DNA of 45,684 nt from a virus: IMG/VR virus record IMGVR_UViG_3300046516_000095, positions 1-45,684 of that record. One strand, given 5' to 3'. The notes beneath the pieces were generated by a model, which saw only the letters and a program-made list of their open reading frames with translations, searched no databases and was not told where the DNA came from. Every line of letters starts with the position of its first letter. The stretch's first letter is position 1. The translations under genes and the position numbers were made by a program. Below are positions 7,011-37,130 of this stretch, piece after piece.

Positions 7011-10000
7011 TTATTTTCCGTAGCGGATTAAAGTTTCGGCAACGCGCTTCGCTTCAATCTGCTGGTCGGTAGACGCACCCTTCATGAAGTCATCGAATGC
7101 CTTTTGGCGGGCCTCGTTGGGGTCCTTAGCACCCTTCACGTTCTTCGTGTCGATGAGTTTTGCCACCAGCTTCTTCACTTCGGAATCCTGAGCGGTCTCG
7201 AGAGCGTTCTTCTGGATGATCTGGCGCGACTCCTTGGCGGAAGTCCAGGCCTTCGGGTGCATGACGTCGTCGAGGGCCGGTGTAGCGGCTGCGGGGGCCT
7301 CGGCGGGCAGCGAGCGGCCCATAATCGCGGCCTTCTCTGCTTCCGACGGTGTCCGACTGCCAATTTCCGGCATGGCCCGCAGTGCATCCTGCAGACCGTA
7401 GTAACGGAACTTCTGGCCGCTCGAGGAGAGCATCATTGCCGCCACCTTGCCGTGGGTATCCGGGGATTCCGTAGCGAGCTTCGCGATTCCGGCCTTAACG
7501 GCTGCGGGGTCGCTGTTGCCGAGGTGGGCGAGCATCATCTTCGCGGCAGGGCTTTCGAACGTGAGACCATCGAAGTTGCCTGCGCCGATTCGACCGACCG
7601 TGTCCGACAGGTTTTGCGCTGCCACGGCCTTCGCGGCCTTCTTGGCGGTCGTTGCCTGGACGGCCTCGAGACCCTGTGCGGGCACCTGGGGACCCACTGC
7701 TGCTGCTGCTTCGGCCTGCTGGCGCATGACCTTGGCGAACTCCGACATCTGGTCCGCATTGCGCGGCGGGCCGAACTGGTTCGACATTCCGAGGAGGAAC
7801 GACGGGTCGCTGGCCTGCTGGTCCGCAAGGGCCTGCTTCTGGGCCAGTTGGGTCTTCAGGTTCGCCTGGGACGCTGCTTGAGCCTGGGCCTGTTGGGCCT
7901 CGAGGGCCGCACGCTGCGCCGGGGAGATCTGAGGACCCATGCGGGCCGCAAGCTGCTCGGCCTGCTGCTTGGCGTAAGCCTGTGCTGCCTTGGCCTGGGT
8001 TGCGTTCATCTGTGGACCCACCGAAGCCTCTGCTTGCGCGGCTTGCTGGGACTGTTGAGCCATACCAGCACGGTTCGCCTGTCCAGATTGTTGAGCGCGG
8101 AACATGTAGTCCCTTGCTGCCGCTTGGGCCTCTGGGGTGAACGGGTTTGCGGCTTGGGCTTGCTGGCGTGCCTGCTGGGCAGCTGCTTGGGCACGTTGGA
8201 AAGCGCTGTCGCCCTGCTTGAATCCTCGGGCGTCCTGGCCTGCCGTATGGGCTGCTGCACGGGCTGCTTGGGCCGCTTGCGCAGCTTGGGCGAGACCTTG
8301 GGCGCTCTGGTTAGCGGTGCCCTGCCCGAAGCGCTTGAGGAACGCCTGGGCCATGGGGCCTTGCTGCAGAGCCGACTCGATGTTCGCTGTACGGTTCGTA
8401 CGCCCACCGAGCAGCGCACCCATCACGTAGTGACGTACCGGGGCTAGCGTGAGAAGACTTCCACCAGGGACCACATGGGAGACCGCGTGCAGAGCACCGT
8501 TGTCGACCAACATGCGGGCGAGGCTGGCCACCTTCCCCAGGTTCGCAGGGGTCGGTGCAGTCAGCGCAAGGGTCCGCTGGTGCATCTGGATCGCATCTGC
8601 CACCGCATCGCCGTTAGGGAGTTGGCGCAGGGCGCTGATCTGGTCGTCGCTGAGCCCTCGGGCACGGTTGAGGGCGTTCAGGAGAGTCTGTCGGTCCTCC
8701 GTCTTCGGCATCTGGCGAAGCTGGTCGGCAGCTTCCTGAGTGTAGCGGCGAGCAAGTGCATTGGCATCGGCTGGGACTAGCTTCGCGCCCTCCTGCGTCG
8801 CGCGACTGTTCATCGCCTGGAGATCAGAGAGGATCTGGGCGTCGCGCTGCCCCCCCTCTACGCTGCCTGCCTTCAGCAGGAACGAGTTTGAGAGTTGGTT
8901 GTCGGTAGCCTTCGTGAAGGCACCACCAAGCCCGCCTCCGACCGCTCCGAGGCCCATGCCAGTTGCAAGCTGCCCTGGGGTGACGTCGTCGAGGTAGTTT
9001 GCGTGGCCGAGGACCTGTGCGGCACCCTCGGTCATCCCTGCGGCACCACCGGCCATCACTCGGGCAGCACGGGAGGCCGTGGGAACGGCTTCGATGGCCT
9101 TGTTGACCAAGGAGATGTCACCCGCACCAGGCACGAAGGCCGAGCCGATCTGGCCAGTTAGGAACGCCGGAGACTTGTCCTCGTAGTCCTGCACTTGGCC
9201 AAGGACGTTATGGTAGCGATCCGAGAACGACCCGCCATCTTGGTAGTTGACAGCCGCGTTGAGGGCTGCACCGGCCTTGTCGGCCATACCAAACGTGAGG
9301 CCATCGACCGCACCGTGTGCTGCGTTACCGAGGGCTTCGATGGGTGAGTCGGTGATCTCGTCCGCAGCACGTTGGAACCACCCCTTCTGCGGCTGTTGGG
9401 CTGCTTGCTCAGCTGCGATCTGCGCCGGGGACTTCTGGCCTGGGAGAGCGAACTGGGTGTTGTCGCTCGGGGGAGGTGCGCCGTATCCGTTAGGGTCCGG
9501 GTTCGCGGGGGCGGAAGCGGCTTGAGCGGACTGTCCAGAGGGCGCTCCTTGGGCCTGTACTGCACCTGAGGCTACCTGGGAATTGCCTGCGTCTTGCGGG
9601 GCCTGCTGGGGCGCTGTGGACGCGTCAGAAGAGGCATCAGCGAGCGGGAAGTTGTCCCACCAGTTCCCCTTCTCGATCCGACCAGCGACCTGTTGGCCAT
9701 ACTGGAGGGTCGTTGGGGCGTTGGGGTTCCGGGGATCACTAACTGCGATGCCCTTCTGTGCTTTGTCGATTGCGCCAGGGCCACCGTAGTAGCCTGCGGC
9801 TGTCAGCGCGGGGTCACCCCCGGCCTTCTCCGACAACTGCTTGATGTACCGGACACCTGCTCTAGCATTGTCGACAGGGTTATTGATGTCCCATCCTTTG
9901 TCGGCAACGGAGTGAAACGTCGCGGGGATAATCTGCATCCCGCCGTGGGCGTCCGCGTTGGACGTCTTCGTGTTCTTGCCGCTTCCGGACTCTTGCTGAT

Positions 10001-10103
10001 AGATGCTGCGGGCAACTGCGGCGTCCTGGGGACTCGCACCCTCTGCGTCCAATGCAATGTCCATCGGGCTTGCGATCGGGAACGAGTCCCAGGAATCTGC
10101 CAT
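7011..10103 (-). CDS. Internal virion protein with lytic transglycosylase domain
   Basis: 1030-aa ejection protein comparable to T7 gp16. Residues ~22-115 form a soluble lytic transglycosylase (SLT) domain: ARSIYQQESGSGKNT with catalytic Glu ~38, then GGMQIIP, then AGVRYIKQL and AAGYYGGPGAI. The rest is very Ala/Gln-rich and helical, with repeated AQQARQQAQ-type blocks at ~600-800. Such proteins sit inside the capsid and are ejected, where the SLT domain cuts peptidoglycan for DNA entry. It is the last of three consecutive internal-protein genes. Confidence 0.87.
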   Translation of the reverse strand: MADSWDSFPIASPMDIALDAEGASPQDAAVARSIYQQESGSGKNTKTSNADAHGGMQIIPATFHSVADKGWDINNPVDNARAGVRYIKQLSEKAGGDPALTAAGYYGGPGAIDKAQKGIAVSDPRNPNAPTTLQYGQQVAGRIEKGNWWDNFPLADASSDASTAPQQAPQDAGNSQVASGAVQAQGAPSGQSAQAASAPANPDPNGYGAPPPSDNTQFALPGQKSPAQIAAEQAAQQPQKGWFQRAADEITDSPIEALGNAAHGAVDGLTFGMADKAGAALNAAVNYQDGGSFSDRYHNVLGQVQDYEDKSPAFLTGQIGSAFVPGAGDISLVNKAIEAVPTASRAARVMAGGAAGMTEGAAQVLGHANYLDDVTPGQLATGMGLGAVGGGLGGAFTKATDNQLSNSFLLKAGSVEGGQRDAQILSDLQAMNSRATQEGAKLVPADANALARRYTQEAADQLRQMPKTEDRQTLLNALNRARGLSDDQISALRQLPNGDAVADAIQMHQRTLALTAPTPANLGKVASLARMLVDNGALHAVSHVVPGGSLLTLAPVRHYVMGALLGGRTNRTANIESALQQGPMAQAFLKRFGQGTANQSAQGLAQAAQAAQAARAAAHTAGQDARGFKQGDSAFQRAQAAAQQARQQAQAANPFTPEAQAAARDYMFRAQQSGQANRAGMAQQSQQAAQAEASVGPQMNATQAKAAQAYAKQQAEQLAARMGPQISPAQRAALEAQQAQAQAASQANLKTQLAQKQALADQQASDPSFLLGMSNQFGPPRNADQMSEFAKVMRQQAEAAAAVGPQVPAQGLEAVQATTAKKAAKAVAAQNLSDTVGRIGAGNFDGLTFESPAAKMMLAHLGNSDPAAVKAGIAKLATESPDTHGKVAAMMLSSSGQKFRYYGLQDALRAMPEIGSRTPSEAEKAAIMGRSLPAEAPAAATPALDDVMHPKAWTSAKESRQIIQKNALETAQDSEVKKLVAKLIDTKNVKGAKDPNEARQKAFDDFMKGASTDQQIEAKRVAETLIRYGK

Positions 10104-10106
10104 GGT

Positions 10107-11435
10107 TTAAGGAACCTTTCTTGGTTTACCGTTGGGGTCAATGAAGATCGTGCCGCTCGGGAGCTTGGCTGCTTCCGCGAAGCTAGAGACCTGGACGGGT
10201 TGGTTGCCAGAGCCGGTGGACGGCCTGGTAGGGGTTGCTTGAGGCGCTGCAGGGGCCTGCGGGACACCGAGGTCCTGACGACCGTTAGAGCCGTACGGGT
10301 TGATGGGGCGGTTTGCCGCTTCACTACCCCGCTTGACGACTCCTGTGTAGAAGTCCATGCGGCTCTTGAGGATCGGGTTGGCACGCTCGTAATACGCATC
10401 CCAGACAGCCGGGGAATCCGAGGGACTCGGGACCGAACCAACTGCGCGGGTCCACTCGTCATTACTGAGTGAGCCGTTGAGGCCTGCAACTTCCATCTTC
10501 GCGCCGTCAATCTTGGCGTTATTCAGAGTGTTGTAGTCCGCAGCCGCTTGCGCCATCGAGCCTCCACCCACCGCCGCTGCAGCACGCTGGGCCATCGAAG
10601 GGAGCGCTGAGTAAGCCTTGAGGTACCCAGCGCGGCTCGAGTCGGTCTTGAGCGTCTCCGTGAGGTTCCGCGCAGCGTCCATTCCCGCCTGAGACTGCTG
10701 GAGGTTCGTGAGCACCGGGATCGCAGCATTACCGTTCGTCTGGTCTTGCTTCATGGCGGCCCGTTGCGCCTCCATGGTGTTCTCACCGATCTTGTTGTTC
10801 ATCTCGAGCATCTTCTGCGCTCTAACCTTGCCCAGGACGTAGTCTTGTACCTGGCTGTTCGGCAGAACCTGCGGCTGCTGGCCAGGCATCTGGACCATCG
10901 AGAACGCGCCGTCCTGGCCCACCGGGGTGACCCTGGGCGTGTTCAGTTCGCGTTGCTGGTTGAGCGTCGAGTCGAAGTTGTCATTGAACGCCTTACCTGC
11001 GTCAGCCATGCCCGTCTTGAAGTCCTTGCCACCCATCATCGCGGAACCTGCTGCAATTAGGCCGTTGTCCATCGACAGGGACGGGTTCGTCGCCTGGTTT
11101 GCGAACATCGCCTGGATGGCATCGGAGTTAGGGTAGCCGCCCATGGCCTGGGTGATCGGCGTCTGCGGGGCCTGCGGATCCATGGCTTGCGCCACAGGAG
11201 TCTGCGGGGCCTGCTGCGGAGCCATGGCCTGCGCCACGGGGGGCTGCATGGGAGCACCACCGCCGAACATCGACTGTCCGGCCTGGTTGTTCATCGGGTA
11301 GCTGTAGGAATACGGCAGGTCCGTGGACTTGTCGGTACCGTAGAACTGCAGCGCCTGCCCCAGGTACGCCGGGAGACTGTGGGACCCATCATCGCGCGGG
11401 TCAATGCCCGGAGGCATGTCAAACGAGTAAGCCAT
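10107..11435 (-). CDS. Internal virion protein (ejection core, middle)
   Basis: 442-aa, Gln/Ala/Pro-rich protein with three near-repeats around residues 70-110 (APQTPVAQAMDPQAPQTP, APQTPITQAM). A helical middle and a Pro-rich C-terminus follow. Position between the SLT ejection protein and a small hydrophobic-start internal protein parallels T7 genes 14-15-16. No enzymatic motif is visible, so the function is inferred from composition and context. Confidence 0.72.
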   Translation of the reverse strand: MAYSFDMPPGIDPRDDGSHSLPAYLGQALQFYGTDKSTDLPYSYSYPMNNQAGQSMFGGGAPMQPPVAQAMAPQQAPQTPVAQAMDPQAPQTPITQAMGGYPNSDAIQAMFANQATNPSLSMDNGLIAAGSAMMGGKDFKTGMADAGKAFNDNFDSTLNQQRELNTPRVTPVGQDGAFSMVQMPGQQPQVLPNSQVQDYVLGKVRAQKMLEMNNKIGENTMEAQRAAMKQDQTNGNAAIPVLTNLQQSQAGMDAARNLTETLKTDSSRAGYLKAYSALPSMAQRAAAAVGGGSMAQAAADYNTLNNAKIDGAKMEVAGLNGSLSNDEWTRAVGSVPSPSDSPAVWDAYYERANPILKSRMDFYTGVVKRGSEAANRPINPYGSNGRQDLGVPQAPAAPQATPTRPSTGSGNQPVQVSSFAEAAKLPSGTIFIDPNGKPRKVP

Positions 11436-11445
11436 TGGGGCCTCC

Positions 11446-12654
11446 TTAGTAGCCGAACGCGCTGAGACCTGCGGGGGCCTGTGATGCGTTCATGGCCGTG
11501 GTGGCCTGTGTGGTGTAGTCATTGCCGCCAGGCATCGTGAAGCCGCTATTGTTGAAGTTGGTGCCACCTGTGTTGCTGTATCCACCGAGCTTGTCCGCGA
11601 TGCCGTAACCCATGAGACCACCACCGGCAGCGCCTTGGAGCGCACCCGCAGCCGTCGAAGGGCCTACCGACGACACTGGCTGACCGCCCCATTTCCCGTT
11701 AATCACGTTCATGTACTGACCGTAGAGGTTCAGCGGCGTCGACTGCTGCTCTTGGAACTGCTGCATCGCGGCGTTGTTCTGCGCCTGCTCCTGGCCCTGG
11801 TAGAGACCGCCTGCAGCGTTGAGTTGGTCGAAGTTGTTGCCGTTCGCCTGTTGGCCGTTGAGGAGACCCGAGGACCCAATCTGATACGCGTTGCCGAGTT
11901 GGTTGTTCGCCGTGAGCGCCCGATCCGAGTTGGCGTTGTACTGCGACTGCGCCGTCTGGAGGCCCGTGTTGAAAAGCTGGCCTCGGATCTGTGCCGCTGT
12001 GTCAGCCATCTGCTCCGAGGCGTTGCGTTGGAGGATCGCTTGGGTCACCCCGGTACGTGTGGAGTCTGTGTTACCGTTTCCTGCAGCCGTTACAGCCAGC
12101 GAGGGAAGCTGCGACTCGTTCAGGTTCCGTGAAGCATCTCGGTTGGCTGCGTTGACCATCTGCGTGGCCATATCACTGTTCGCCAGTCCGTTTGCGTAGT
12201 TCATGAACCCTTGGGTCGGGTCCTGCTGTGCCTGCGCTAGGAGTCCTTGGGCGTTGGTGCCATACTGCGAACCCGTCTGCGTGAGGCCCATACCAGTGTT
12301 GTAGAACTGGTTTGCCGTATTGATGCCGTTACCGTTCGCGTAGGATGCGGTCTGATCGGCTCCTTGGGTCTGGTAGGGATTCAGACCAGCTACGCGTGGT
12401 CCGCTGTACGTTCCCATGCCCAGGGCATTGTGGAGCGCGTCTTGGGACCCTTGGAACTCGCCGCTGATATACGGCTGCGCTGCGGACCAGGGGGAATTGG
12501 CAGCCTGGGCTGCGGACTTTTGGGCATCGGCGGCATTGCTCGAGGCGATACCACTACCGACCGCGCCGACTGCTGCTGCCCCTACTGCCGCTGCGGCCAC
12601 ATGCGAGCGCATGAAGATCGCGGGGGCGAGGAGCTTGAGGATTGACTTGATCAT
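11446..12654 (-). CDS. Internal virion protein with N-terminal hydrophobic segment
   Basis: 402 aa from the ATG at 12654, chosen because it overlaps the preceding stop as ATGA; an in-frame upstream codon at 12690 lies inside the neighbour. Residues ~8-45 are hydrophobic and Ala/Gly-rich (LLAPAIF, AAAAVGAAAVGAVGSGIAS), compatible with membrane insertion. The rest is Gln/Asn/Gly-rich (e.g. NQFYNTGMGLTQTGSQYGTN). A gp14-like ejection protein forming an outer-membrane pore is the likeliest role. Confidence 0.72.
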   Translation of the reverse strand: MIKSILKLLAPAIFMRSHVAAAAVGAAAVGAVGSGIASSNAADAQKSAAQAANSPWSAAQPYISGEFQGSQDALHNALGMGTYSGPRVAGLNPYQTQGADQTASYANGNGINTANQFYNTGMGLTQTGSQYGTNAQGLLAQAQQDPTQGFMNYANGLANSDMATQMVNAANRDASRNLNESQLPSLAVTAAGNGNTDSTRTGVTQAILQRNASEQMADTAAQIRGQLFNTGLQTAQSQYNANSDRALTANNQLGNAYQIGSSGLLNGQQANGNNFDQLNAAGGLYQGQEQAQNNAAMQQFQEQQSTPLNLYGQYMNVINGKWGGQPVSSVGPSTAAGALQGAAGGGLMGYGIADKLGGYSNTGGTNFNNSGFTMPGGNDYTTQATTAMNASQAPAGLSAFGY

Positions 12655-13100
12655 AGGACCTTGGAAAAGAGGCGCTCGGTTTCCCGCCAACCCATCCGCT
12701 CAAAGATCGGTCCCATGTCTAGGTGCAACTTGGTCCCGGAGAACACCTTCTTGACCCCACGGGCCTTGAGGGTCTTCTCCACGTACTTGAAGAGCTTTAC
12801 GCCTGTCCACCCCTGCCGATGCTCCGGGGAGATGTAATAGACGTCAGTAAAGCCGTGGAGGTCGTTCTTGTAATGGAGGTGCGGACGGACGATGCTGATG
12901 TGGTAGCCAACGATCTTTCCGGCCTCGCGGGCCGTGACGATGTGTAGCGCCCCAGAATCACAAAATGCTTCGTACTGCCGATAGTCGGGGGCCAGCTTAA
13001 TGGTGTCGTGGTCGATTGCGACCTCTTGCCAATGAGCGGGCCACAGGGCCTCCATTTCAGACACGATGTCCCGCCACTTCTCTACTGAATAGGTAATCAC
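12651..13100 (-). CDS. GNAT-family N-acetyltransferase
   Basis: 149-aa protein with the GNAT layout: an early strand-helix, HIVTAREAGKIVGYHISIVRP (beta3-beta4), then YYISPEHRQGWTGVKLFKYVEKTLKARG. The last segment contains the acetyl-CoA pyrophosphate-binding loop (RQGWTG) and following helix; IFERMGWRETE is the usual C-terminal element. GNATs inside podovirus structural operons are common and their substrates are unknown. It overlaps the beta-hydroxylase gene upstream and the internal-protein gene downstream by 4 bases each. Confidence 0.85.
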   Translation of the reverse strand: MITYSVEKWRDIVSEMEALWPAHWQEVAIDHDTIKLAPDYRQYEAFCDSGALHIVTAREAGKIVGYHISIVRPHLHYKNDLHGFTDVYYISPEHRQGWTGVKLFKYVEKTLKARGVKKVFSGTKLHLDMGPIFERMGWRETERLFSKVL

Positions 13101-13669
13101 GGCTTGGATGTCCGAATGTCAACGACCATGTGGATGCGGTCGCAGGGGGAGTTGTTGATCACTTCATGCTCTTCGGCGTTCTGGAACCACCAGGTCTCGC
13201 CTGGGGCCATGTAGACGTCCTCGTCGCCCGTGCGGAAGTACACTCCCGGGGCGCTTTGGAGCACCACATGGAAGCGATCCCAGTATTGGGCATGTTCCGG
13301 AGTATCCGCGTGCGGGAAGATGCGACCACCAGGGGCGATCTTGTTGACGATCACGCGCCCTAGGCGTTCGCCGCCCACGCGGGCCATGAGGCCCATGACG
13401 ATGGGACGGGCTTCCGGGAGGGCCTTGTATGCCTCCTGGTCAACGCACTCGTGCTGGTCGAAGTTCTCGAGGTGCTTCTTGAGGGCTTCTTCGGTTTCAT
13501 GCACGGAGCGCGGCGGGAAGCGCAGGATGATCGACTCGATCTGCCCGAACGGCCCCTGGGGGTAGTCGCGCAGGTACGTGTCGGCCTTCCAGATCTCCGG
13601 ACGGCGTTGGATTGCGAGGTTGAGCGGCACTGTGTCCAGGCCTACTCCGATTCGCATGAAGTTTTTCAT
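13097..13669 (-). CDS. Aspartyl/asparaginyl beta-hydroxylase-like 2OG-Fe(II) enzyme
   Basis: 190-aa protein with the double-stranded beta-helix signature: GGRIFPHADTPEHAQYWDRFHVVL (His and Asp of the Fe site, facial-triad first half), GVYFRTGDEDVYMAPGETWWFQN, then EHEVINNSPCDRIHMVVDIR (distal His and the Arg that binds 2-oxoglutarate). These residues place it in the aspartyl/asparaginyl beta-hydroxylase family. The substrate is unknown; it may hydroxylate a virion protein or host factor, since it lies inside the structural operon beside a GNAT. Confidence 0.82.
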   Translation of the reverse strand: MKNFMRIGVGLDTVPLNLAIQRRPEIWKADTYLRDYPQGPFGQIESIILRFPPRSVHETEEALKKHLENFDQHECVDQEAYKALPEARPIVMGLMARVGGERLGRVIVNKIAPGGRIFPHADTPEHAQYWDRFHVVLQSAPGVYFRTGDEDVYMAPGETWWFQNAEEHEVINNSPCDRIHMVVDIRTSKP

Positions 13670-13690
13670 TGCTCTCTCGATTTAAAAGGG

Positions 13691-13855
13691 TTACGTGACC
13701 CGCGCAGCAAGTTGCGTCAGTGCCGAGTTGATAGCGGCTACCGAACGCTCGAGCTTCTTTAGCTCTTCCTGAAGCCATTGGGCTTCGGATCCCTTTAATG
13801 GGGGCTGTGCTGCGCGGACGTAGTTCTGAAGTGGCGTGGTGTACGTGATGGCCAT
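13691..13855 (-). CDS. Small helical tail-operon protein
   Basis: 54-aa gene starting MAITYTTPLQNYVRAQPPLK with a heptad-like C-terminal half (LEELKKLERSVAAINSALTQL-type spacing). An excellent AGGAGG ribosome site embedded in the end of the upstream gene (13859-13868) supports it. Length and coiled-coil character suggest a small virion or chaperone protein; no family recognised. Confidence 0.7.
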   Translation of the reverse strand: MAITYTTPLQNYVRAAQPPLKGSEAQWLQEELKKLERSVAAINSALTQLAARVT

Positions 13856-13857
13856 GG

Positions 13858-15567
13858 TTACCTCCTGGAGAGGGACTTGACCTCAACGTCCATGCCGGAT
13901 AGCTGGAAGTTAGAGATCGAGGCAGTGCTGACCTTGTAGGACAGGTAGCGCCCTGAGACCATCATGTCCAGCTTGTAATCCGTCGCCGGGTTGAAGGTTG
14001 CTTTGGACCGATAGTTCGGCGTCTGCTCCGGGAGATCCGAGGAGCCAAATTCGAACGTGAACGTCCCTGTGCTGTCGTCGAAGAACGACTCCGGGACCGC
14101 GCACTGCACCGTCTTGTAAGACCGCAGCGGGAGGCCCTGGGTATCCAGGGAGATCCCCACGCGTTCCACATAGGCGGGCTTGAGCGTCTCGGTGTTGGCC
14201 GGGAGATTGACCAGGCCGACCGTTGGCAGGTCGACGGCGTAGACGCAGGAGTCCGAGAGGCCCTTGGTCTGGTCGTACACCCCGAGCATGATCGACAGCT
14301 TCGGCGTTCCACCACCCGAGAAGCTCGAATAGGCCGTGTTGAACAGGGTGTAGCTGTTCGTGACGTCCGGGAACGAGTTCTTGACGAGCGAAGCATTGGC
14401 CTCTGCCCCACCGACGATGTTCGGCAGGTCCATGAACGACCAGGTGTCCGACTTGTAGTTGTACGTGGCTGCTTGGTTGCAGAATTGGGTGCCTGCGAAG
14501 GGCGCTTCGTCCTGCAAGGTCGCGTAGCAGAAGTGCAGTAGCTTCGACACGGAGTCGTGGGCCACGAAGCAGAACTGCTGCTTGTTGCGGTCCAGTGTGC
14601 TGAAGATGCGGCGACGGACGCGGCCATCTGCAATCGACTGGCGGCTGATGCCGTCATGGACGTAGATGTCGTTGTCGCCAAATACAAAGTGTTTGCTTTC
14701 GACCTCGACCACACAGTTCGTGTTGACGATGCCGCCCTCGAAGGGGAGCCTGCGGAAGTTGAAGACGTTCAGGTCGCCCGAGTACTCCATGAGCCACAAC
14801 TGGTTCTGGGAGTAGATGATGAAGGCCTCGCCAAGGGAGAGACCATCACGGATCGGGTTCTTCATATCACCGATGACATTCTCACCGGCCACGTAGTTCG
14901 TGTTGCTCGGGTCCCACTGGAGACCGGAGACTGCGGTCGAGTACTGGAGCGGATTCGACCACTTGACCATGGTCGGGTAGTCCACGCCTGCCTTGTTCAT
15001 ACCGAGGCAGATGCAGTATCCCTTGAAGCCCCGAACGATGCTCGCCTGGTCCCCTGCGACCCAATCGCCTCCCATGAGGGAGTAGTTGGAATCGTGCTTG
15101 ATGTTCCGAGCGTAGGGCACCATGCCCTTGCGGGCTAGGAACGAGAGACCAGCGACCTGGGCGTGGCTCCATGCATTGTCGTTCGTCACAGTCCCCGAGG
15201 TGGGGGTCTGGAAGGACATCACGTTGCCAGGGTAGGCACGGATTGTTCCATCGTTGTCGGCAACGAATACCGTCTCACCAGCAGTGGGGTCGGTGTAGCT
15301 ACCGACAAAGCGAGAAGCGTTAGAGCTACCGCCCTCCGCAGAGTTGTAGACGGATGTGTTTGCATCGTAGGTCCCTGCTGCCGCATCGTACGAGAGCGTC
15401 GAGCGGATCGGGGTGAAGAGTTGCTTGAAGACCGGGGCACGCTGCACGCGGCCTTCGGAGAAGATGACGTTGTTCGCCGCCGAGTAAGCACTGGGCGGAA
15501 GGTCATACGGGCTGGCGTCGGTGATTACCCCCACGCCCCCCAATTGGCGAAGCGGGAGGTTGGCCAT
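13858..15567 (-). CDS. Tail nozzle / tail tubular protein B-like structural protein
   Basis: 569-aa protein starting MANLPLRQLGGVGVITDASP, followed by PYDLPPSAYSAANNVIFSEG. This opening is shared by a large family of podovirus tail structural proteins. The body is beta-rich with WSM/FGxNDIYVHDG-type blades (e.g. HFVFGDNDIYVHDGISRQ), fitting a beta-propeller nozzle. It sits upstream of the internal virion proteins and downstream of the collar-domain genes. Confidence 0.7.
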   Translation of the reverse strand: MANLPLRQLGGVGVITDASPYDLPPSAYSAANNVIFSEGRVQRAPVFKQLFTPIRSTLSYDAAAGTYDANTSVYNSAEGGSSNASRFVGSYTDPTAGETVFVADNDGTIRAYPGNVMSFQTPTSGTVTNDNAWSHAQVAGLSFLARKGMVPYARNIKHDSNYSLMGGDWVAGDQASIVRGFKGYCICLGMNKAGVDYPTMVKWSNPLQYSTAVSGLQWDPSNTNYVAGENVIGDMKNPIRDGLSLGEAFIIYSQNQLWLMEYSGDLNVFNFRRLPFEGGIVNTNCVVEVESKHFVFGDNDIYVHDGISRQSIADGRVRRRIFSTLDRNKQQFCFVAHDSVSKLLHFCYATLQDEAPFAGTQFCNQAATYNYKSDTWSFMDLPNIVGGAEANASLVKNSFPDVTNSYTLFNTAYSSFSGGGTPKLSIMLGVYDQTKGLSDSCVYAVDLPTVGLVNLPANTETLKPAYVERVGISLDTQGLPLRSYKTVQCAVPESFFDDSTGTFTFEFGSSDLPEQTPNYRSKATFNPATDYKLDMMVSGRYLSYKVSTASISNFQLSGMDVEVKSLSRR

Positions 15568-18338: not shown

Positions 18339-18875
18339 ATGAACGCAACGATCAACAGACTCTTCGCTAACCCGTACAACATGGATGCATCTGGTTTCTA
18401 CTTCGAGACCTTCGAAGAGTTCACGGAAAAGTCAGCAGCCCTGCGTGATGCCCACGGTGCGCCCGTGGAAGAGTTCATGATCGACTTCATCGACGGTCCG
18501 GACGCTCAACTGTTCGCAGCGTGCAAGGTTGACCAATCGAACCTGGAATTCTGGTTTGATGAGGTGGAAGGCTTGAAATACTGGGAGAAGGTGGCGTTGT
18601 TCTACCTGGTCAGCGTGAATGGACAGGACCTTGAAGAGGCCTTGTCGACCTGTGGCGGTGGCGTACGTAATATCGATGATGTCAGCCTGTTCAAAGGCGA
18701 ACTGAAAGAGGCTGCGGAAGACCTCTTCGACGAACTCTACCTGTCGGACGTTCCTGAGCGCGTTCGCGCTTACATCGACTATGACTCTTTCGCCCAAGAC
18801 TGTCGCCTGAATGGGGACATGTACGAATTCGAGTTCAATGGGGAAACGTGGACGTGTACTAACGCCAACTCGTGA
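18339..18875 (+). CDS. ardA: ArdA-like antirestriction protein
   Basis: 178-aa, strongly acidic protein. The C-terminal part (VPERVRAYIDYDSFAQDCRL, then NGDMYEFEFNG) matches the end of ArdA proteins, and the middle (LEFWFDEVEGLKYWEKVALF, DLEEALSTCGGGVRNIDDVS) fits the same fold. ArdA is a DNA mimic that blocks type I restriction enzymes. An early position right after infection is what such a function needs, as with T7 Ocr. AAGGG precedes the ATG. Confidence 0.82.
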   Translation: MNATINRLFANPYNMDASGFYFETFEEFTEKSAALRDAHGAPVEEFMIDFIDGPDAQLFAACKVDQSNLEFWFDEVEGLKYWEKVALFYLVSVNGQDLEEALSTCGGGVRNIDDVSLFKGELKEAAEDLFDELYLSDVPERVRAYIDYDSFAQDCRLNGDMYEFEFNGETWTCTNANS

Positions 18876-18891
18876 GCGTTTTTGTACAACA

Positions 18892-18919
18892 CCATACCCT
18901 GTGGTACAGGAGCAACCAT
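18892..18919 (+). promoter_or_regulatory. Possible promoter/operator before the ribozyme region
   Basis: TTGTACAAC at 18892-18900 with a TACAGG hexamer 17 bases after TTGTAC, and a second GTAC (GGTACAGG). This resembles the early promoter but the -10 is poor. It may be an operator or a weak promoter for the hammerhead cassette. Confidence 0.35.
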
Positions 18920-18970
18920 GAATAGAAGAGTCATCCGCCGGTCATCGTGATTGGTGATCGGCACTCAAAG

Positions 18971-19018
18971 CCCTACTGATGAGACATGAGACGTCGAAAC
19001 CCCGCAAGGGGTCTAGGG
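18971..19018 (+). ncRNA. Type I hammerhead ribozyme HHR1
   Basis: All conserved elements are present in order: stem I CCCTA (18971-75), core CTGATGA (18976-82), and stem II GAC/GTC with closing G-C. Then come GAAA (18996-99), stem III CCCC-GCAA-GGGG (19000-19011), TC, and stem I partner TAGGG (19014-18). Predicted self-cleavage is after C19013 (GUC site). The open helix is stem I, so it is type I. It lies 33 bases before a small gene. Confidence 0.93.
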
Positions 19019-19046
19019 ATAACCAAACGAACCAAGGGGAAACAGA

Positions 19047-19175
19047 ATGTTTATCGCTACCACATACAAGGGTAAACCGGCTGTATTGGATACAAAGACC
19101 CGCGTTTATTACTTTGGCTATAAGTCGATGAAAGAAGCACGGGACAAAGCCACAGAGTTAAACAAGCCCTACTGA
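19047..19175 (+). CDS. Small basic protein between two ribozymes (42 aa)
   Basis: MFIATTYKGKPAVLDTKTRV... 42 aa, beta strands followed by a basic helix (YKSMKEARDKATELNK). AAGGGGAAA serves as ribosome site. The TGA stop (19173-75) is part of the CTGAAGA core of the second ribozyme, so gene end and ribozyme are physically merged. Predicted cleavage on both sides would release a 196-nt RNA (19014-19209) carrying only this gene. Confidence 0.65.
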   Translation: MFIATTYKGKPAVLDTKTRVYYFGYKSMKEARDKATELNKPY

Positions 19176-19214
19176 AGAGCCCTAAGAGGGCGAAACCCCG
19201 CAAGGGGTCTAGGG
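19167..19214 (+). ncRNA. Type I hammerhead ribozyme HHR2
   Basis: Stem I CCCTA (19167-71)/TAGGG (19210-14), core CTGAAGA (19172-78; the variable N7 is A), and stem II GCCC/GGGC (19079+100, i.e. 19179-82/19188-91). GAAA (19192-95), stem III CCCC-GCAA-GGGG (19196-19207), and cleavage after C19209 complete it. Stem II differs completely from HHR1 yet still pairs, which is strong support. The 3' ~30 bases are identical to HHR1. It lies 25 bases before the next gene. Confidence 0.93.
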
Positions 19215-19234: not shown

Positions 19235-19594
19235 ATGCAAAGAAACATCGCTTTCATCACCCGTCATTACCTCGTCGCTGCTCTTTGGTCATCGACCGAT
19301 GAACATGGGGCACCCTTGGACGCAGTCTTCACGGTCGATGACGTTTCGCCTGAACTGCTCAAAGAGTCCACCGAGGATGTGCGGGACTTCGTGGAAGCGA
19401 ATGCTGCCCTGTTGGATTCTTCCGGACTGTCTGATGAACAGATTGGTCACTACTTCTGGCTGACCCGTCACGGGCATGGTGCGGGATTCTGGGACCGTGG
19501 ACTGGGTGTTGTTGGCGAAGCTCTGTCGGAAGCTTGCAAGCCCTACGGCGAAGTGTGCCTGTACGCGGGTGACGATGGCTGGGTGTACGCGTGA
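19235..19594 (+). CDS. Conserved phage early protein (119 aa)
   Basis: 119-aa protein with the recurrent phage motif SDEQIGHYFWLTRHGHGAGF followed by WDRGLGVVGEALSEACKPYG and LYAGDDGWVYA. Proteins with this HGHGAGFWDR-type signature are common in small-gene regions of phages; function unknown. The mRNA 5' end is predicted to be made by HHR2. Confidence 0.75.
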   Translation: MQRNIAFITRHYLVAALWSSTDEHGAPLDAVFTVDDVSPELLKESTEDVRDFVEANAALLDSSGLSDEQIGHYFWLTRHGHGAGFWDRGLGVVGEALSEACKPYGEVCLYAGDDGWVYA

Positions 19595-19692
19595 TCGCTA
19601 ATCGCATCGACCCTGCAGCCATCCTTTTCGGTTCGGCTGTTCTCTTGTGCCTTGCGGGATGCGCTGGGATTGTGCTGACTATCTTTCTGTGA
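19591..19692 (+). CDS. Tiny predicted membrane protein (33 aa)
   Basis: GTG start overlapping the previous stop (GTGA). Residues ~9-33 form one transmembrane segment (AAILFGSAVLLCLAGCAGIV, then LTIFL). An L-A-G-C sequence resembles a lipobox, but the peptide is too short for a lipoprotein. Could be an early toxin or membrane effector; no family recognised. Confidence 0.5.
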   Translation: MIANRIDPAAILFGSAVLLCLAGCAGIVLTIFL

Positions 19693-21854: not shown

Positions 21855-24353
21855 ATGAACCTGCAAGACCTCGACCTGAACTACGCCCGCCAGGCTGATC
21901 TCGAAGCGTCGATGATCGAGCGCGGCCAGCAACGCTACGCCGACCAGAACGAGCGTGCTCTGCGTGACGGTGACATCAGCCGCCCTCAAGGCAAACTGTT
22001 CGCCCAAGCATTCCAGAAGTCCGTGGTTGCCATCGGTCTCGCTGCGGCTGCCGAGGCTGCCAAGGGCCGTGGTCGCCCTGCTCCGCACGCTGCGGCGCTC
22101 AAGTCCATCGACCATGACCTCCTGGCGGCGATGGCCCTGAAGCTGATCTTCAATGGTGCCGCGAACGTGTACCCCATCGTCACCTCGGCGCAGGCCCTGG
22201 GCTTCGAGTGCGAGGCCGAGATGGCCGTGCAGAAGCTCGCGGAGCAGGCCAAGGCGACGAACAACGCCGAACTGAAGAAGCTGGTCGGTCGCAAGGTCAC
22301 CTCGGCGCGTGCCGGTAAGCAGAAGGGTGAGCAGATCCTGGCCGCTGCGGATGTGTGGGAGAACCACGACGACCTGATCAAGGTTGGCATGGGCATCATC
22401 AACATCATCCTGCCGGTGCTGGACATGTTCGACACGGTCGAGGGCAACTCGGCAGAAGGCTCGTCGATCCTCCAGTTCACCGAGTCGGCGCAGTCTGAGA
22501 TGGACAGCATGGCCGAGATCCAGCAGTGGATGCACCCGGTCTACCAACCCATGGTCACCCGCCCGAACCCGTGGACGGACTTCAACACGGGAGCCTACAA
22601 CGACCAGCGGGTTGCCCGCACGGTGCAGTTGATGGTCACCCCGAACCGCAAGCAGCGAAGCCTGGTCGACGCAGCCGCGAAGGCCAACGCGCCCTTCATC
22701 CGTGCCTTGAACGCAGTCCAGGACGTGCCCCTCATGATCAACCAGAAGGTCCTCGAGACCCTTGAACACTGCTTTGCCTCGGGCATCGCGGTCGGCAAGG
22801 TCCCTGGTCTCCCCCTGGCGATCCCGAAGGACCACGGCATGGAAGGCAAGGAAGTCTCCAAGCGCCTGAAGGACAACAGCGCTGTCCGTGCGAAGCGCAA
22901 CGCCATCCGTGCGGTGATTGCTGAGGCGAAGAACTACGTGGGCACCGCCTTCTTCCAGCCGCATGTTCTGGACTGGCGTGGTCGCGTGTATGCCAAGCCT
23001 GGCTTCAACCACCAGCGTGCGGACTTCGCCAAGGGCCTGTACGAACTGGCTCGCGGTGAGGTGCTGAACGCGGACGGCGTCTACTGGCTCAAGTGGCATG
23101 TGGCCACCACGGGTGCATTCAAGGTGGATGGTGTAGCTGTCGACAAGATGGCCCACGATGCCCGCGTTCAGTGGACCGATGCGAACCTGTGGATGGTCCG
23201 CGCCATCGCTGAGGACCCTATCGCCTCCCTGGAACTCTGGAAGGGTGCCGACAGCCCGTTCTGCTTCCTGGCTGCCTGCCTGGCGCTCCAGGGGTACTTC
23301 AACGACCCCACGGGCTACGTCTGCCATATCCCGGTCGCGGTCGACGGTTCGTGCTCGGGCCTGCAGCACTTCTCGGCGCTCCTTCGGGATCCGGAAGGTG
23401 GCTCGTACGTGAACCTGTTGCCCTCGGAACTGCCGCAGGACGTCTACCGCAAGGTGGCCTCCATCGTGCTGCCGCTGGTCCAGGCTGACCTCACGGATCC
23501 GGAGAAGGCCGAGTTCGCCCAGAAGTGGATCGCCTACGGCATCGACCGCAAGGTGGCCAAGCGTGCGACCATGACTTTTGTTTATGGGAGCAAGCAGAAG
23601 GGCTTCGCGGACCAGCTTGTCGAGGACATCATAGACGTGGAAGGCAAGGGCCGTGAGATCTTCGGCACCGAGTGGGCCACGCAAGTCCCGGCTGCGCACT
23701 ACCTCGCTGCGCACATCATGTTCGCGGTGAAGGAGACCGTGAAGGCTGCTGCTGATGCGATGGAATGGCTGCAGAAGGTTGCGGGCATCCTGGCGCGTCA
23801 CAACCTGCCGGTTCGCTGGATCACTCCCCTGGGTCTCCCCGTGGAGAACGCCTACTACAAGCCGAACACGAAGCGCGTGCAAACGACGCTGTGGAACCGT
23901 GCTTTGTCCGTGCCGACCACGTACACCCCCAAGATCACCGTGGGGATGTCCAAGGAACTGCTCGAGCACAAGCAGCGCAACTCCATCGCCCCGAACTTCG
24001 TCCACTCGCTGGACTCGGCTCACCTGATGGCCGTGGTGCTCAAGGCGGTCGACAACGACATCAACGACTTCCTGCTGATCCACGATAGCTTCGCTGCCCT
24101 GCCCAATCAGATGCCGAAGTTCAACGCACTGATCCGTGAAGCGTTCGTCGAACTGTACGAGCACAACGAGCCGCTCAACGAGGTATTGTCGAACGCGGTC
24201 GAGGACCTGATGGAGCTGGTCACCGCCTGCGAGTCTGCGGACGTGATGAAGAAGCTCCAGAAGTCCATGCAGGACCTGGGGAAGCTCGGGATCCCTGAGA
24301 AAGGCACGCTGAACCTCGACGACGTAAAGAGATCGGCCTACGCTTTTGCGTGA
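21855..24353 (+). CDS. T7-type single-subunit DNA-dependent RNA polymerase
   Basis: 832 aa (T7 enzyme 883). Recognisable landmarks are DWRGRVYAK at ~373 and motif A VAVDGSCSGLQHFSALLRD at ~494, with the first catalytic Asp. Motif B RKVAKRATMTFVYGSKQKGF lies at ~564 (Lys, Tyr and Gly as in T7), and motif C FLLIHDSFAALP at ~738 carries the second catalytic Asp. The C-terminus ends ..AYAFA with the terminal Phe-Ala typical of this family. It transcribes phage middle and late genes from its own promoter class. The ATG at 21855 follows CGGAGCACCTC. Confidence 0.97.
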   Translation: MNLQDLDLNYARQADLEASMIERGQQRYADQNERALRDGDISRPQGKLFAQAFQKSVVAIGLAAAAEAAKGRGRPAPHAAALKSIDHDLLAAMALKLIFNGAANVYPIVTSAQALGFECEAEMAVQKLAEQAKATNNAELKKLVGRKVTSARAGKQKGEQILAAADVWENHDDLIKVGMGIINIILPVLDMFDTVEGNSAEGSSILQFTESAQSEMDSMAEIQQWMHPVYQPMVTRPNPWTDFNTGAYNDQRVARTVQLMVTPNRKQRSLVDAAAKANAPFIRALNAVQDVPLMINQKVLETLEHCFASGIAVGKVPGLPLAIPKDHGMEGKEVSKRLKDNSAVRAKRNAIRAVIAEAKNYVGTAFFQPHVLDWRGRVYAKPGFNHQRADFAKGLYELARGEVLNADGVYWLKWHVATTGAFKVDGVAVDKMAHDARVQWTDANLWMVRAIAEDPIASLELWKGADSPFCFLAACLALQGYFNDPTGYVCHIPVAVDGSCSGLQHFSALLRDPEGGSYVNLLPSELPQDVYRKVASIVLPLVQADLTDPEKAEFAQKWIAYGIDRKVAKRATMTFVYGSKQKGFADQLVEDIIDVEGKGREIFGTEWATQVPAAHYLAAHIMFAVKETVKAAADAMEWLQKVAGILARHNLPVRWITPLGLPVENAYYKPNTKRVQTTLWNRALSVPTTYTPKITVGMSKELLEHKQRNSIAPNFVHSLDSAHLMAVVLKAVDNDINDFLLIHDSFAALPNQMPKFNALIREAFVELYEHNEPLNEVLSNAVEDLMELVTACESADVMKKLQKSMQDLGKLGIPEKGTLNLDDVKRSAYAFA

Positions 24354-28786: not shown

Positions 28787-29275
28787 ATGACCGAACTGAC
28801 CGTCGAACGTCTGCGGGACCTCCTGCATTACGAGGTGGTCACCGGCAGGTTCTACTGGAAGATGTGGCGAGGCGGGTCTGCAAAGGCTGGGACCATTGCC
28901 GGATCCATTGACACCTGGGGACACAGGCAGATAAAGATCGACGGGGAAGTATATGGGGCGCATCGCCTGGCGTGGATGTGGGTCACAGGAGAAACCCCAC
29001 CTCCCCTGCTGGACCATGTTAATGGAGCTACGGACTGTAACGGGTTCCACAACATTCGCCCGGCAACATCCGCTCAAAACGCATTCAACAGTAAGGCCAA
29101 GTCTAGCTCTACCTCCGGCATCAAAGGCATCAGCAAGGTCAGAAGCGGCCGCTGGCGCTGGCGAGTGTATGTAGGACGCACACTGCTGACAGGGACGGTT
29201 GATACGGCTGAGGAGGCTGCGGCAGCAGTACAGAGTGCCAGAGAGAAACTACACGGTGAATTTGCTCGCCATTAA
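28787..29275 (+). CDS. Free-standing HNH homing endonuclease with AP2 domain
   Basis: 162 aa. HNH core: GAHRLAWMWV, then LLDHVNGATDCNGFHNIRPA and QNAFN, giving the H..DH.N..N pattern. A C-terminal AP2-like DNA-binding domain (TSGIKGISKVRSGRWRWRVY, AEEAAAAVQSAREKLHGEFA) follows. Such proteins cleave intron-less alleles of nearby genes. It stands directly before the DNA polymerase gene, whose group I intron contains no ORF, so it may mobilise that intron. Confidence 0.9.
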   Translation: MTELTVERLRDLLHYEVVTGRFYWKMWRGGSAKAGTIAGSIDTWGHRQIKIDGEVYGAHRLAWMWVTGETPPPLLDHVNGATDCNGFHNIRPATSAQNAFNSKAKSSSTSGIKGISKVRSGRWRWRVYVGRTLLTGTVDTAEEAAAAVQSAREKLHGEFARH

Positions 29276-29289
29276 CATTTAGGACTGCA

Positions 29290-31491
29290 ATGCGAACGAC
29301 TTTCTTTGACCTTGAAGCAGACGGCTTCTTGAATAATGCAACACAGATTCACTGCCTCTCGCTCAAGTGCCGCGAACTCGCGAAGAGGAAACTCTTCACG
29401 ACCGCTGCGGGGAACATCAAAGAAGGCGTTCGCCTGCTGATGAAGCTGGGCGAGGAAGGCAAGGTGGTCGGGCACAATGTGATCGACTACGACCTACCCC
29501 TCATCACCAAGTTCTTCCCGTGGTTCCAAGTGCCGCTTGCTAACGTAGTGGACACCCTTGTCCTCTCACGCCTTTTCTTCAGCGACATGTTCAACCGGGA
29601 CGGGGCTTTCATCAAAGCGGGGAAGCTACCGAGCAAGCGCATTGGTTCTCACGCCCTTGAGGCGTGGGGGATGCGGCTTGGACTTTTGAAGGGCGAATAC
29701 GCAGACGACTTCAAGCAGAAGTGGATCGACGACTTCGGCCCATCGGCGTGGCATGACTATTCGGAAGAACTCGCACACGACGAGCCGAAGAAGTTCGCCA
29801 AGCTCACCGACGAGGACAAGGCGAAGTGGATTGCGGCATGGGGCAAGGAGAACTACCCCGAGGGCCTCGAGTGGAAGGAGTACAGCCCCGAAATGGGGGC
29901 GTATTGTGAACTCGACGTAGATGTGACGGAGGCTCTGTATGACCACCTCATGAAGCTCGAGTACTCCGACCTTGCGGTAGAGATGGAGCACAAAGCACGC
30001 CACTACTGCTCCATGATGACCCGCAGCGGGTGGCCCTTTAATGTTGAAGCTGCGGTGTCCTTGTACGCGAAGCTGGCCCAAGAGCGGGACGCCATCCGCG
30101 CAAAGATGATGGCGACCTTCCCTCCCTTGGTGATCGAGAGGGTCTCTGAGAAGACAGGGAAGCCCCTGAAGCCCAAGGTCCTCGAGTTCAACCCAGGGAG
30201 CCGCGATCAGATCGCCCAACGCCTGAAGCTCAAGTACGGTTGGGAGCCTAAGGAGTTCACCGAGAGCGGCAAGGCCAAGATCGATGAAGACATCCTGAAG
30301 AAGTTGCCCTACGAGGAAGCGCAGATCCTGGCGGACTACTTCCTGCTCGAGAAGCGTGTCGGTCAGATCGCTGAAGGCGACCAGGCGTGGCTAAAGCTCG
30401 AGCGCAACGGGCACATCCACGGGTCGATCAACACGAACGGCGCGGTGACCGGACGATGCACCCACGCGGCCCCGAACATCTCTCAGGTACCAAGTGTCCG
30501 TGCGCTACACGGTAGGGAATGCCGGGCACTGTTCCACGTCCGAAAGGGCTTCAAGCAAGTCGGTGCTGACTTGTCGGGTATCGAGCTTCGGTGCCTTGCG
30601 CACTTCATGAGTCGCTGGGACGGCGGGGCCTACGGGAAGATCATTCTCGAAGGCGACATCCACACCGAGAACCAGAACGCTGCAGGCCTCCCGACCCGCG
30701 ACAACGCAAAAACCTTCATCTCATTGGGATGACTTGGGGGCAACCCCTCGATTAAAACTGTGTGAACTCAGGGAACATCTCATCGAGACAATCCTGAGCC
30801 AAGCCTTGTGAGCCTCCAGATCATGTTGAGGCTCACAAGGAAGGTGCAACGACTATCCCGAAAGGGAGTAGATCCAAGCGGATCGAAGCGCACAGCCCCT
30901 ACTACTGTAGGGTGAAGAGATAGTCTGGACTGCACGGTGACGTGTAGCTGCGCGTAGTGGCGCGGGGCAGGAGTAGCGAACCTGCCTGAACACTTCGATG
31001 CATTCCTTTACGGTGCGGGAGACGAGAAGATCGGCTCCATCATCGGTAAGGGCCGAGCAGCCGGTAAGGTGCTCAAAGAGAAGTTCCTCGCATCCCTCCC
31101 GGCCCTCGGGAAACTCAAGGACGCTGTGGAAAAGAAGGCGAAGACCGAAGGCTACATCTTGGGCCTGGACGGTCGACGCCTGACGATCCGCTCCGCACAC
31201 GCTGCGCTCAACACCCTCCTGCAGGGCGCTGGTGCTGCTATCGCGAAGCGGTGGGTCATCGAGGTCTTCGAGGAAGCCGAACGCCGTGGCTTGCGCTACG
31301 GGTGGGACGGTGACTGGACCCTCATGGGCTTCATCCACGATGAAATGCAGTTCGCAGTCCGCGAGGGCCTCGAGCAGCAGTTCGGAGAGATGGTCGTCGA
31401 GTGCGCAGCGCGTGCTGGCGAGTTCTTTAAATTTAGGTGTCCTGTCGGTGCCGAATTCAAGATCGGCAAGGACTGGGCGGAGTGCCACTGA
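29290..31491 (+). CDS. DNA polymerase I-type (T7 gp5-like), split by group I intron
   Basis: Exon 1 is 29290-30721 and exon 2 is 30998-31491; joined they give ~641 aa (T7 704). The 3'-5' exonuclease is visible as FFDLEADG (Asp7, Glu9), GHNVIDYDLP and YCELDVDVTE. Polymerase motif A is VGADLSGIELRCLAHFMSRW (~424). Motif B RDNAKTFI-YAFLYGAGDEKIG spans the splice junction, and motif C is MGFIHDEMQF. Without splicing the frame ends at a TGA (30730-32). The interrupted codon is a Tyr, equivalent to T7 Tyr526 in the O-helix. Confidence 0.93.
30722..30997 (+). ncRNA. Group I self-splicing intron, ORF-less
   Basis: The 276-nt intron follows a U and ends in G (G30997). P1: exon TCATCT pairs with GGATGA (30727-32), giving the U-G pair at the 5' splice site. 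P7: GACTA (30851-55) pairs with TAGTC (30921-25) inside the R-like GTGCAACGACTA and S-like AAGAGATAGTCT core sequences. P8 is TCCC-GAAA-GGGA (30856-67). A 12-bp stem CCTTGTGAGCCT/AGGCTCACAAGG (30804-15/30829-40) and a CCCTAC/GTAGGG hairpin follow. CAT (30722-24) can pair with ATG of exon 2 (P10). Exact splice points restore motif B. Confidence 0.92.
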
Positions 31492-35456: not shown

Positions 35457-36266
35457 ATGAAGACCGCAGCCAAACAGAAGGCACCGACGAACCTCCACGA
35501 ACTCCTTCGGATCGCCGCCAAGGCCCTGTGGCGCGGTAAGGCCTACGAACTCACCGCTTACCGCAACGTCGAGCAGTTCATCAAGGTGGTCGGCAACCTG
35601 GCCCTCGAGGACGTCCGGACGACGACCATCGACGACTTCATCCTGGAGGTCCAAGGGACCATCGCGGACGCCACGGTCAACCGCAAGCTGGCCAACATCC
35701 ACACGGTCCTAAAGTACGGCTTCGAGCGCGAGTGGATCGCCAAGATGCCGAAGTTCGAATGGAAGGAAGAAACGGAGGGACGCACCCGCTGGTTGACAGA
35801 AGTCGAAGAAATTCAGATGTTCGCCCTCTTGGACACCTGGGGAGAGGCCGAGGTCGCTAGGTTCCTTACGGTCTCCATCGACACCGGAATGCGCCGCTCG
35901 GAGATCCTGAAGCTCGAGGCGAAGAACGTGGATGGACCGTGGGTTCGGCTGTGGGTCAACAAGACGAAGAAGCCCCGCTCGGTGCCCCTCAGCGTCCGCG
36001 CTCAGGAGGCGATTGCCCAGGGTCTGCCCTTCGCCCTGGACGAGGGGAAACTGCGGGCTGTATGGCTGCGCCTGAAGGTGGCCATGGGCCTCGAGGGGGA
36101 CGACGACTTCGTCCTTCACGCCCTGCGACATACCGCCGCAACCCGGACGCTGTCGAGGACTGGGAACATCGCGGTAGTCCAGAAGCTCCTCGGACACCGT
36201 AAGATACAGACGACGATGCGCTACGCCCACATCTCGGACGAGGACCTGCTGGCGGCTGTGCGGTAA
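35457..36266 (+). CDS. int: Tyrosine recombinase / integrase
   Basis: 269 aa with an N-terminal SAM-like core-binding domain (residues ~5-95) and C-terminal catalytic domain. Arg I lies in IDTGMRRSEILKL, a beta-hairpin Lys in VNKTKKPRSVPL, HxxR in LHALRHTAATRT, His in LLGHRKIQTT, and the Tyr nucleophile in MRYAHIS. All catalytic residues are visible. It could integrate the phage or resolve multimers of its plasmid form. AAGGAG precedes the ATG. Confidence 0.94.
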   Translation: MKTAAKQKAPTNLHELLRIAAKALWRGKAYELTAYRNVEQFIKVVGNLALEDVRTTTIDDFILEVQGTIADATVNRKLANIHTVLKYGFEREWIAKMPKFEWKEETEGRTRWLTEVEEIQMFALLDTWGEAEVARFLTVSIDTGMRRSEILKLEAKNVDGPWVRLWVNKTKKPRSVPLSVRAQEAIAQGLPFALDEGKLRAVWLRLKVAMGLEGDDDFVLHALRHTAATRTLSRTGNIAVVQKLLGHRKIQTTMRYAHISDEDLLAAVR

Positions 36267-37025: not shown

Positions 37026-37030
37026 TCAGT

Positions 37031-37053
37031 GCCCCGCTCTGTCGGGGCTTTGG
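37031..37053 (+). terminator. GC hairpin after the RHH gene (weak terminator/attenuator)
   Basis: GCCCCG-CTCTGT-CGGGGC followed by TTTGG. The short T-tract suggests partial termination between the regulator gene and parA. Confidence 0.5.
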
Positions 37054-37057
37054 TCTG

Positions 37058-37123
37058 CCAAGGAACCAAGTTTCCTTCCTTGGAAGTTTCCTTTATTCTT
37101 TCATTCGTTCCTTCCTACCTTGG
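37058..37123. repeat. parS-like repeat cluster upstream of parA
   Basis: CCAAGGAACCAAG (37058-70), TTCCTTGG (37076-83), TTCCTTTATT and CTTCCTACCTTGG (37111-23) are direct and inverted versions of the AACCAAGGAA unit. The same unit recurs three times inside the parB-like gene. Likely centromere/operator for the partition proteins. Confidence 0.6.
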
Positions 37124-37130
37124 AGCCAGA

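Follow-up and report, generated by a model that had tools for sequence, protein, structure and literature searches.

Tandem type I hammerhead ribozymes predicted to cleave at gene borders upstream of a T7-type RNA polymerase gene in a phage genome

Multiple hammerhead ribozymes flanking individual small prophage genes were described by Perreault et al. (2011, PMC3088659). In Agrobacterium tumefaciens three of them form an array around ardA that was found to cleave both in vitro and in E. coli, and the ribozymes were proposed to divide long phage transcripts into single-gene mRNAs (PMC3088659). A related element, HHphage of the haloviruses HF1 and HF2, lies just upstream of an early gene, where a mapped transcript 5′ end is ≤3 nt from the cleavage site (PMC3088659). 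Different hammerheads are often found around ORFs that encode small, non-conserved proteins, and the role of these ribozymes is listed as open (PMC6155905). The locus described here, in a 45.7-kb virus record that was analysed over its whole length (the window), is an arrangement of the kind known in phages since 2011: a 42-aa ORF lies between two hammerheads of the same orientation that are spaced by 196 nt and, as in the published arrays, small phage genes are surrounded by several hammerheads with ardA adjacent. In contrast to the A. tumefaciens array, ardA is located upstream of the pair and not between the ribozymes, the phage carries a T7-type RNA polymerase, and the ribozyme sequences fall under the Rfam thresholds; the HF1/HF2 element, unlike the window pair, is single, has a variant core and belongs to an archaeal virus. 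A sequence-only reading of this DNA had regarded phage hammerheads as mostly single and near late genes, and two flanking one gene as unusual. This is contradicted by the published arrays (PMC3088659, PMC6155905) and by how common multi-copy loci are, as about a third of the fragments (99 of 281, viral and genomic, among the matches listed) hold two or more hammerheads, a count that is approximate because a few fragments overlap. What the window locus and its relatives show is how consistently this gene-flanking arrangement is built, and they make its role testable.

Judged by sequence and predicted structure, both window elements are genuine type I hammerhead ribozymes for which cleavage is predicted (Table 1). 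The invariant core (C3 U4 G5 A6 N7 G8 A9, G12 A13 A14, A15.1-U16.1, H17) is matched exactly in both copies, and stems II and III are closed by loops while stem I is open, in agreement with the class I assignment by our scanner. The sequence-only reading had claimed tandem type I hammerheads with a full core and helices flanking one small gene, and its coordinates, strand and predicted cleavage sites are all borne out by the anatomy, the scanner and an independent covariance model. Its observation that stem II differs between the copies also stands, although the stem of copy 1 is weak, with 3 bp followed by an A.C mismatch where the stem of the relative L006 is intact with 5 bp. Stems I and III are identical between the copies and variation is confined to stem II, so that relatives are needed for real covariation. 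The predicted minimum-energy fold of copy 2 is exactly the hammerhead (–21.5 kcal/mol), and the hammerhead fold of copy 1 lies 0.2 kcal/mol above its predicted minimum; given this non-optimal fold and the weak 3-bp stem II, copy 1 may be the slower of the two in cleavage. Outside the core, where hammerheads may make a tertiary contact between loop II and the region of stem I, the aligned phage sequences conserve an AG before stem I, a CAA after it and, in loop II, a U-N-A pattern; the window copies partly differ from these.

Table 1. Positions of the ribozymes, their parts and the neighbouring features in the window.
Feature	Position	Strand	Remarks
TTGTACAA dyad copies	17214, 17699, 18882, 21776, 24359, 24510, 25805		
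ArdA-like antirestriction gene	18339..18875	+	PF07275, 35.4 bits (cutoff 27); phrog_2059, anti-restriction; upstream of leader and copy 1
TTGTACAA dyad	18882..18889	+	opens the conserved leader; conserved in relatives
Leader mini-ORF MNRRVIRRSS	18918..18950	+	from translation
Leader hairpin	18937..18962	+	from folding; directly upstream of copy 1; conserved in relatives' alignment
Hammerhead copy 1	18971..19018	+	type I; predicted cleavage after C19013; R3 61.1 bits, E 1.3e-14
Copy 1 stem I	18971-18975/19014-19018	+	
Copy 1 core	18976-18982; 18996-18999	+	CUGAUGA; GAAA
Copy 1 stem II	18983-18985/18993-18995	+	
Copy 1 stem III hairpin	18999-19012	+	C17 = 19013
Ribosome-binding site	19034-19039		AAGGGG, ahead of the 42-aa ORF
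42-aa small ORF	19047..19175	+	from ORF list; between the ribozymes
Hammerhead copy 2	19167..19214	+	type I; predicted cleavage after C19209; R3 67.4 bits, E 2.4e-16
Copy 2 stem I	19167-19171/19210-19214	+	
Copy 2 core	19172-19178; 19192-19195	+	CUGAAGA; GAAA
Copy 2 stem II	19179-19183/19187-19191	+	
Copy 2 stem III	19195-19208	+	C17 = 19209
119-aa gene after copy 2	19235..19594	+	phrog_1915, E 7.1e-25
Small membrane protein gene (MIANRIDPAAILFG...)	19591..19692	+	closes the variable cassette slot
T7-type single-subunit RNA polymerase gene	21855-24353		phrog_414, E 3.1e-195; ribozymes lie upstream
Integrase gene	35457-36266		
ParA-like gene	37029-37775		

A scanner for hammerhead types I, II and III that requires both core and helices finds the two copies and no others in the whole window, and 0 matches in 100 dinucleotide shuffles. 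As the bare core (CUGANGA, GAAA and UC with loose spacing) is expected ∼3 times per window by chance, the significance is carried by the helices. A covariance model (R3) was trained on 63 phage hammerheads after exclusion of the window phage and its known close relatives, and it likewise returns the two copies and nothing further up to E = 10. Scanning viral contigs with stem III as in the window gave 43 loci among the matches listed, and a second pattern with stem III free gave at least 120. Across 68 diverse phage sequences 97.6% of the helix cells are paired, a percentage that is partly built in because the core and part of stem III were fixed at collection and a helix-requiring scanner filter was then applied; in 13 of the 15 base pairs both partners vary, and covariation scores 0.743 compared to 0.149 for shuffled and ≤0.085 for slid alignments. 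The first scan placed no demand on stems I and II, and before any filtering each of its 39 unique sequences already has a stem I of 4–6 bp as well as a stem II (offset by one base in L022). The frequency of the core motif by itself might suggest that the elements are chance resemblances or plain hairpins, but the shuffles, the covariation and the E values of 1e-14 to 1e-16 from the independent model refute this explanation, to which we assign a negligible probability.

The Rfam hammerhead families, proposed as a check with the sequence-only reading, miss both copies at gathering thresholds, and no match at these thresholds was obtained for the window, for 14 related loci or for a locus with ten ribozymes (L302). 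The best permissive matches of the window copies are Hammerhead_HH9 (RF02275, 24.5 bits versus a gathering score of 52) and the RAGATH-1 hammerhead (RF03152, 24.3 and 26.0 bits versus 56.3), far under the respective gathering scores. The type II hammerhead (RF02276) has the same catalytic core and occupies the same slot in the close relatives L063, L066 and L069; the window copies differ from it in that stem I and not stem II is open. Many phage hammerheads score under the Rfam thresholds and are therefore absent from routine annotation. One contig with a type I hammerhead match (L022) also holds a pistol ribozyme above the gathering score (1279-1355).

The ribozymes had also been assigned to the early operon of a T7-like phage, a claim that holds for the T7-type RNA polymerase, the position of the ribozymes upstream of it and the replication module (T7 primase/helicase, a gp2.5-like SSB and a family A DNA polymerase), that is, for the RNA polymerase and replication proteins expected of a phage of the Autographivirales type. 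It does not hold for a strictly lytic phage with its genes on one strand, as the structural genes are on the minus strand and integrase and ParA-like genes are present, so that this phage is no classic T7 relative. The presence of integrase and ParA beside a T7-type RNA polymerase suggests a temperate or plasmid-like lifestyle. The best named relative of the RNA polymerase is just 33% identical, named-phage relatives of the 119-aa gene are ∼40% identical, and searches among named phages found neither a relative of the ArdA gene nor, at the DNA level, a record similar to the ribozyme region. No match to the 42-aa ORF was found in PHROGs or Pfam. The TTGTACAA dyad at the start of the leader occurs 7 times in the window versus 0.25 expected, always within 17.2-25.8 kb and in one case (17699) overlapping a sigma-70-like promoter; it is probably a repressor operator or promoter element common to the relatives.

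The stop codon of the 42-aa ORF (UGA, 19173-19175) is the UGA within the CUGA core of copy 2. We compared 198 unique type I hammerheads to 990 random control sites, considering ORFs of ≥40 codons; a part of the hammerheads comes from related phages, and the counts are thus not independent events. An upstream stop codon is located within –14 to +4 of the core in 146 of the 198 (74%) but at only 77 control sites (8%), and in 32 it is inside the CUGA core as in copy 2. In 131 of 198 cases versus 259 of 990 controls, the next 80 nt contain a start codon with its ribosome-binding site, and the starts cluster ∼20–50 nt past the predicted cleavage site. Type II hammerheads dock their own 5′ edge at the upstream stop in 138 of 167 cases (83%, versus 94 of 835 or 11% for the controls). 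Such docking in two topologies argues that the gene-border position is what selection keeps. The 120 ORFs found after hammerheads are mostly without known function, with scattered single matches to ArdC-type antirestriction, RNA polymerase and recombinase, and they hence share no common function.

If the element were a translation-gated switch, a ribosome terminating at the stop codon would block folding of the ribozyme, and cleavage would report upstream translation and set the ratio of linked to separated mRNAs. The overlapping or abutting stop codons in most cases, including those 32 inside the core, and the like docking of type II are what such a switch would look like. However, little intergenic space would explain the same placement, and copy 1 is preceded by the leader mini-ORF, which ends 20 nt before it. 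We consider a switch of this kind unlikely as the function of the element; ribosome gating of cleavage is an attractive, if hypothetical, addition to transcript processing.

The largest array among the matches listed comprises ten hammerheads (L302/G016), a type III at the head and nine type II behind it, with one at each border of consecutive genes; it spans 8900-13998, and its last member precedes a gene that reads like the start of an integrase. Another fragment (G022) has nine type I hammerheads, the ninth of which is weak. Among the matches listed, 139 fragments contain type I only, 130 type II only and 3 both. Type III is mostly first in its array with the other members being type I or II (L075, L104, L133, L148, L150, L155, L186 and L302), and its numbers are a minimum because the patterns used for searching are biased towards types I and II. 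Four hammerheads with stem I alternating between GCACUA and GCACAU are found in L011 and in L017; with this alternation neighbours cannot cross-pair and every second one can.

In close relatives the pair occupies a slot of constant layout: a leader (TTGTACAAC, mini-ORF M-RRVIRR and hairpin) comes first, each cassette gene has a hammerhead of its own, and the series closes with the membrane protein gene, whose product starts with (M/V)IANRIDPAA or a close form. The window has two type I hammerheads and two genes in the slot, L058 one type I and one gene, L063 two type II and two genes, and L066 and L069 one type II and one gene each; the same membrane gene lies behind the cassettes of L058, L063, L066 and L069. 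L062 has no insert, and its leader ORF is continuous with the membrane protein. The gene ahead of the leader is 93% identical between L058 and L069, which carry type I and type II, respectively, and the RNA polymerases of L063, L066 and L069 are ∼99% identical while their cassette genes differ. The 119-aa gene is itself mobile among these phages, being preceded by type I in the window, by type II in L069 and L048-L050, and by no hammerhead in L052-L053, where a search of the ardA–119-aa junction of L052 for another ribozyme gave only noise. As the genes change too, exchange of ribozyme-gene cassettes is favoured over permutation of a ribozyme in place, and from these comparisons such exchange appears to have taken place.

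A tentative extension, which we hold to be possible but not the likelier case, is that the hammerhead is a standard 5′ part of an exchangeable cassette (ribozyme, ribosome-binding site and gene) swapped in a fixed slot next to antirestriction genes. Each gene would bring its own self-cutting border, possibly ribosome-gated, and topology would be irrelevant if the cut falls just after the preceding stop. If this is indeed the case, a new gene would require neither promoter nor terminator. The hammerheads could instead be passengers at a recombination seam, with conserved ribozyme sequence aiding cassette swapping and RNA cleavage of little use. Different cassette genes behind similar hammerheads in phages with ∼99% identical RNA polymerases would fit such a seam, but compensatory changes keep the helices while the primary sequence drifts, which points to selection for folding and not for DNA identity, and we regard the seam as very improbable. 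As the same slot, leader and following gene occur naturally in versions with a type I element, a type II element or none, these versions allow a direct comparison of expression and RNA ends. In the literature covered (most subscription journals excepted) we found no report of stop-codon docking, of one topology per fragment or of type I/II exchange at one slot.

Taken with the published cleavage of tandem hammerheads, the R3 matches, helices and covariation, the exact placement at stop and start codons of gene borders, the docking of type II, the arrays and the one hammerhead per cassette gene make it probable that the hammerheads are self-cleaving intercistronic processing sites on an early polycistronic transcript. 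If so, transcription would probably start at the leader (TTGTACAA, 18882), the cut in copy 1 after C19013 would remove the leader and leave the mRNA of the 42-aa gene downstream, and the cut in copy 2 after C19209 would separate this gene from the 119-aa gene. Cleavage in the cell would place each gene on its own mRNA with a short 5′-OH leader containing the ribosome-binding site, and the mRNA upstream of a ribozyme would end in a 2′,3′-cyclic phosphate and the GC-rich hairpin of stem III, which may protect the 3′ end. Because a stop codon lies inside the ribozyme, terminating ribosomes would be expected to interfere with it. In T7, RNase III sites cut the early polycistronic mRNA at gene borders; both systems act at gene borders of an early transcript, but T7 uses a host protein enzyme whereas RNA catalysis would do this job here by predicted self-cutting.

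Whichever topology cuts, the stem III hairpin would form the 3′ end of the upstream mRNA, and the downstream mRNA would open with a short leader and a ribosome-binding site; in type II, but not in type I, the latter mRNA would also keep stem I as a hairpin at its 5′ end. That the two types differ in this 5′ end yet serve the same slot makes what they have in common, cleavage at the gene border and a 3′ end closed by a hairpin, the likely function. The weak stem II and alternative fold predicted for copy 1 would speak against processing, and in L052-L053 no hammerhead was detected between ardA and the 119-aa gene behind it, so that processing is not essential there.

A further possible fate of the cleaved RNA is a circle, in which the 196-nt fragment 19014-19209 would be ligated and encode the 42-aa protein. 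Stem I is identical in both copies and, with UAGGG at the 5′ end of the fragment and CCCUA in copy 2, a hammerhead can re-form with the fragment's own ends; compatible stems I are also found in 47 of 81 adjacent hammerhead pairs versus ∼9.5% of pairs from different loci. However, duplication accounts for the shared stems and no circular or spliced product was seen in published tests (PMC3088659), which makes a circle a remote prospect for the window fragment. As a general function circularisation is rejected, since 34 of the 81 neighbouring pairs are without compatible stems.

Elsewhere in the window, a group I intron (30710-30947, 97.9 bits) is located where the first DNA polymerase ORF ends, and an HNH endonuclease ORF is present at 28787-29275.
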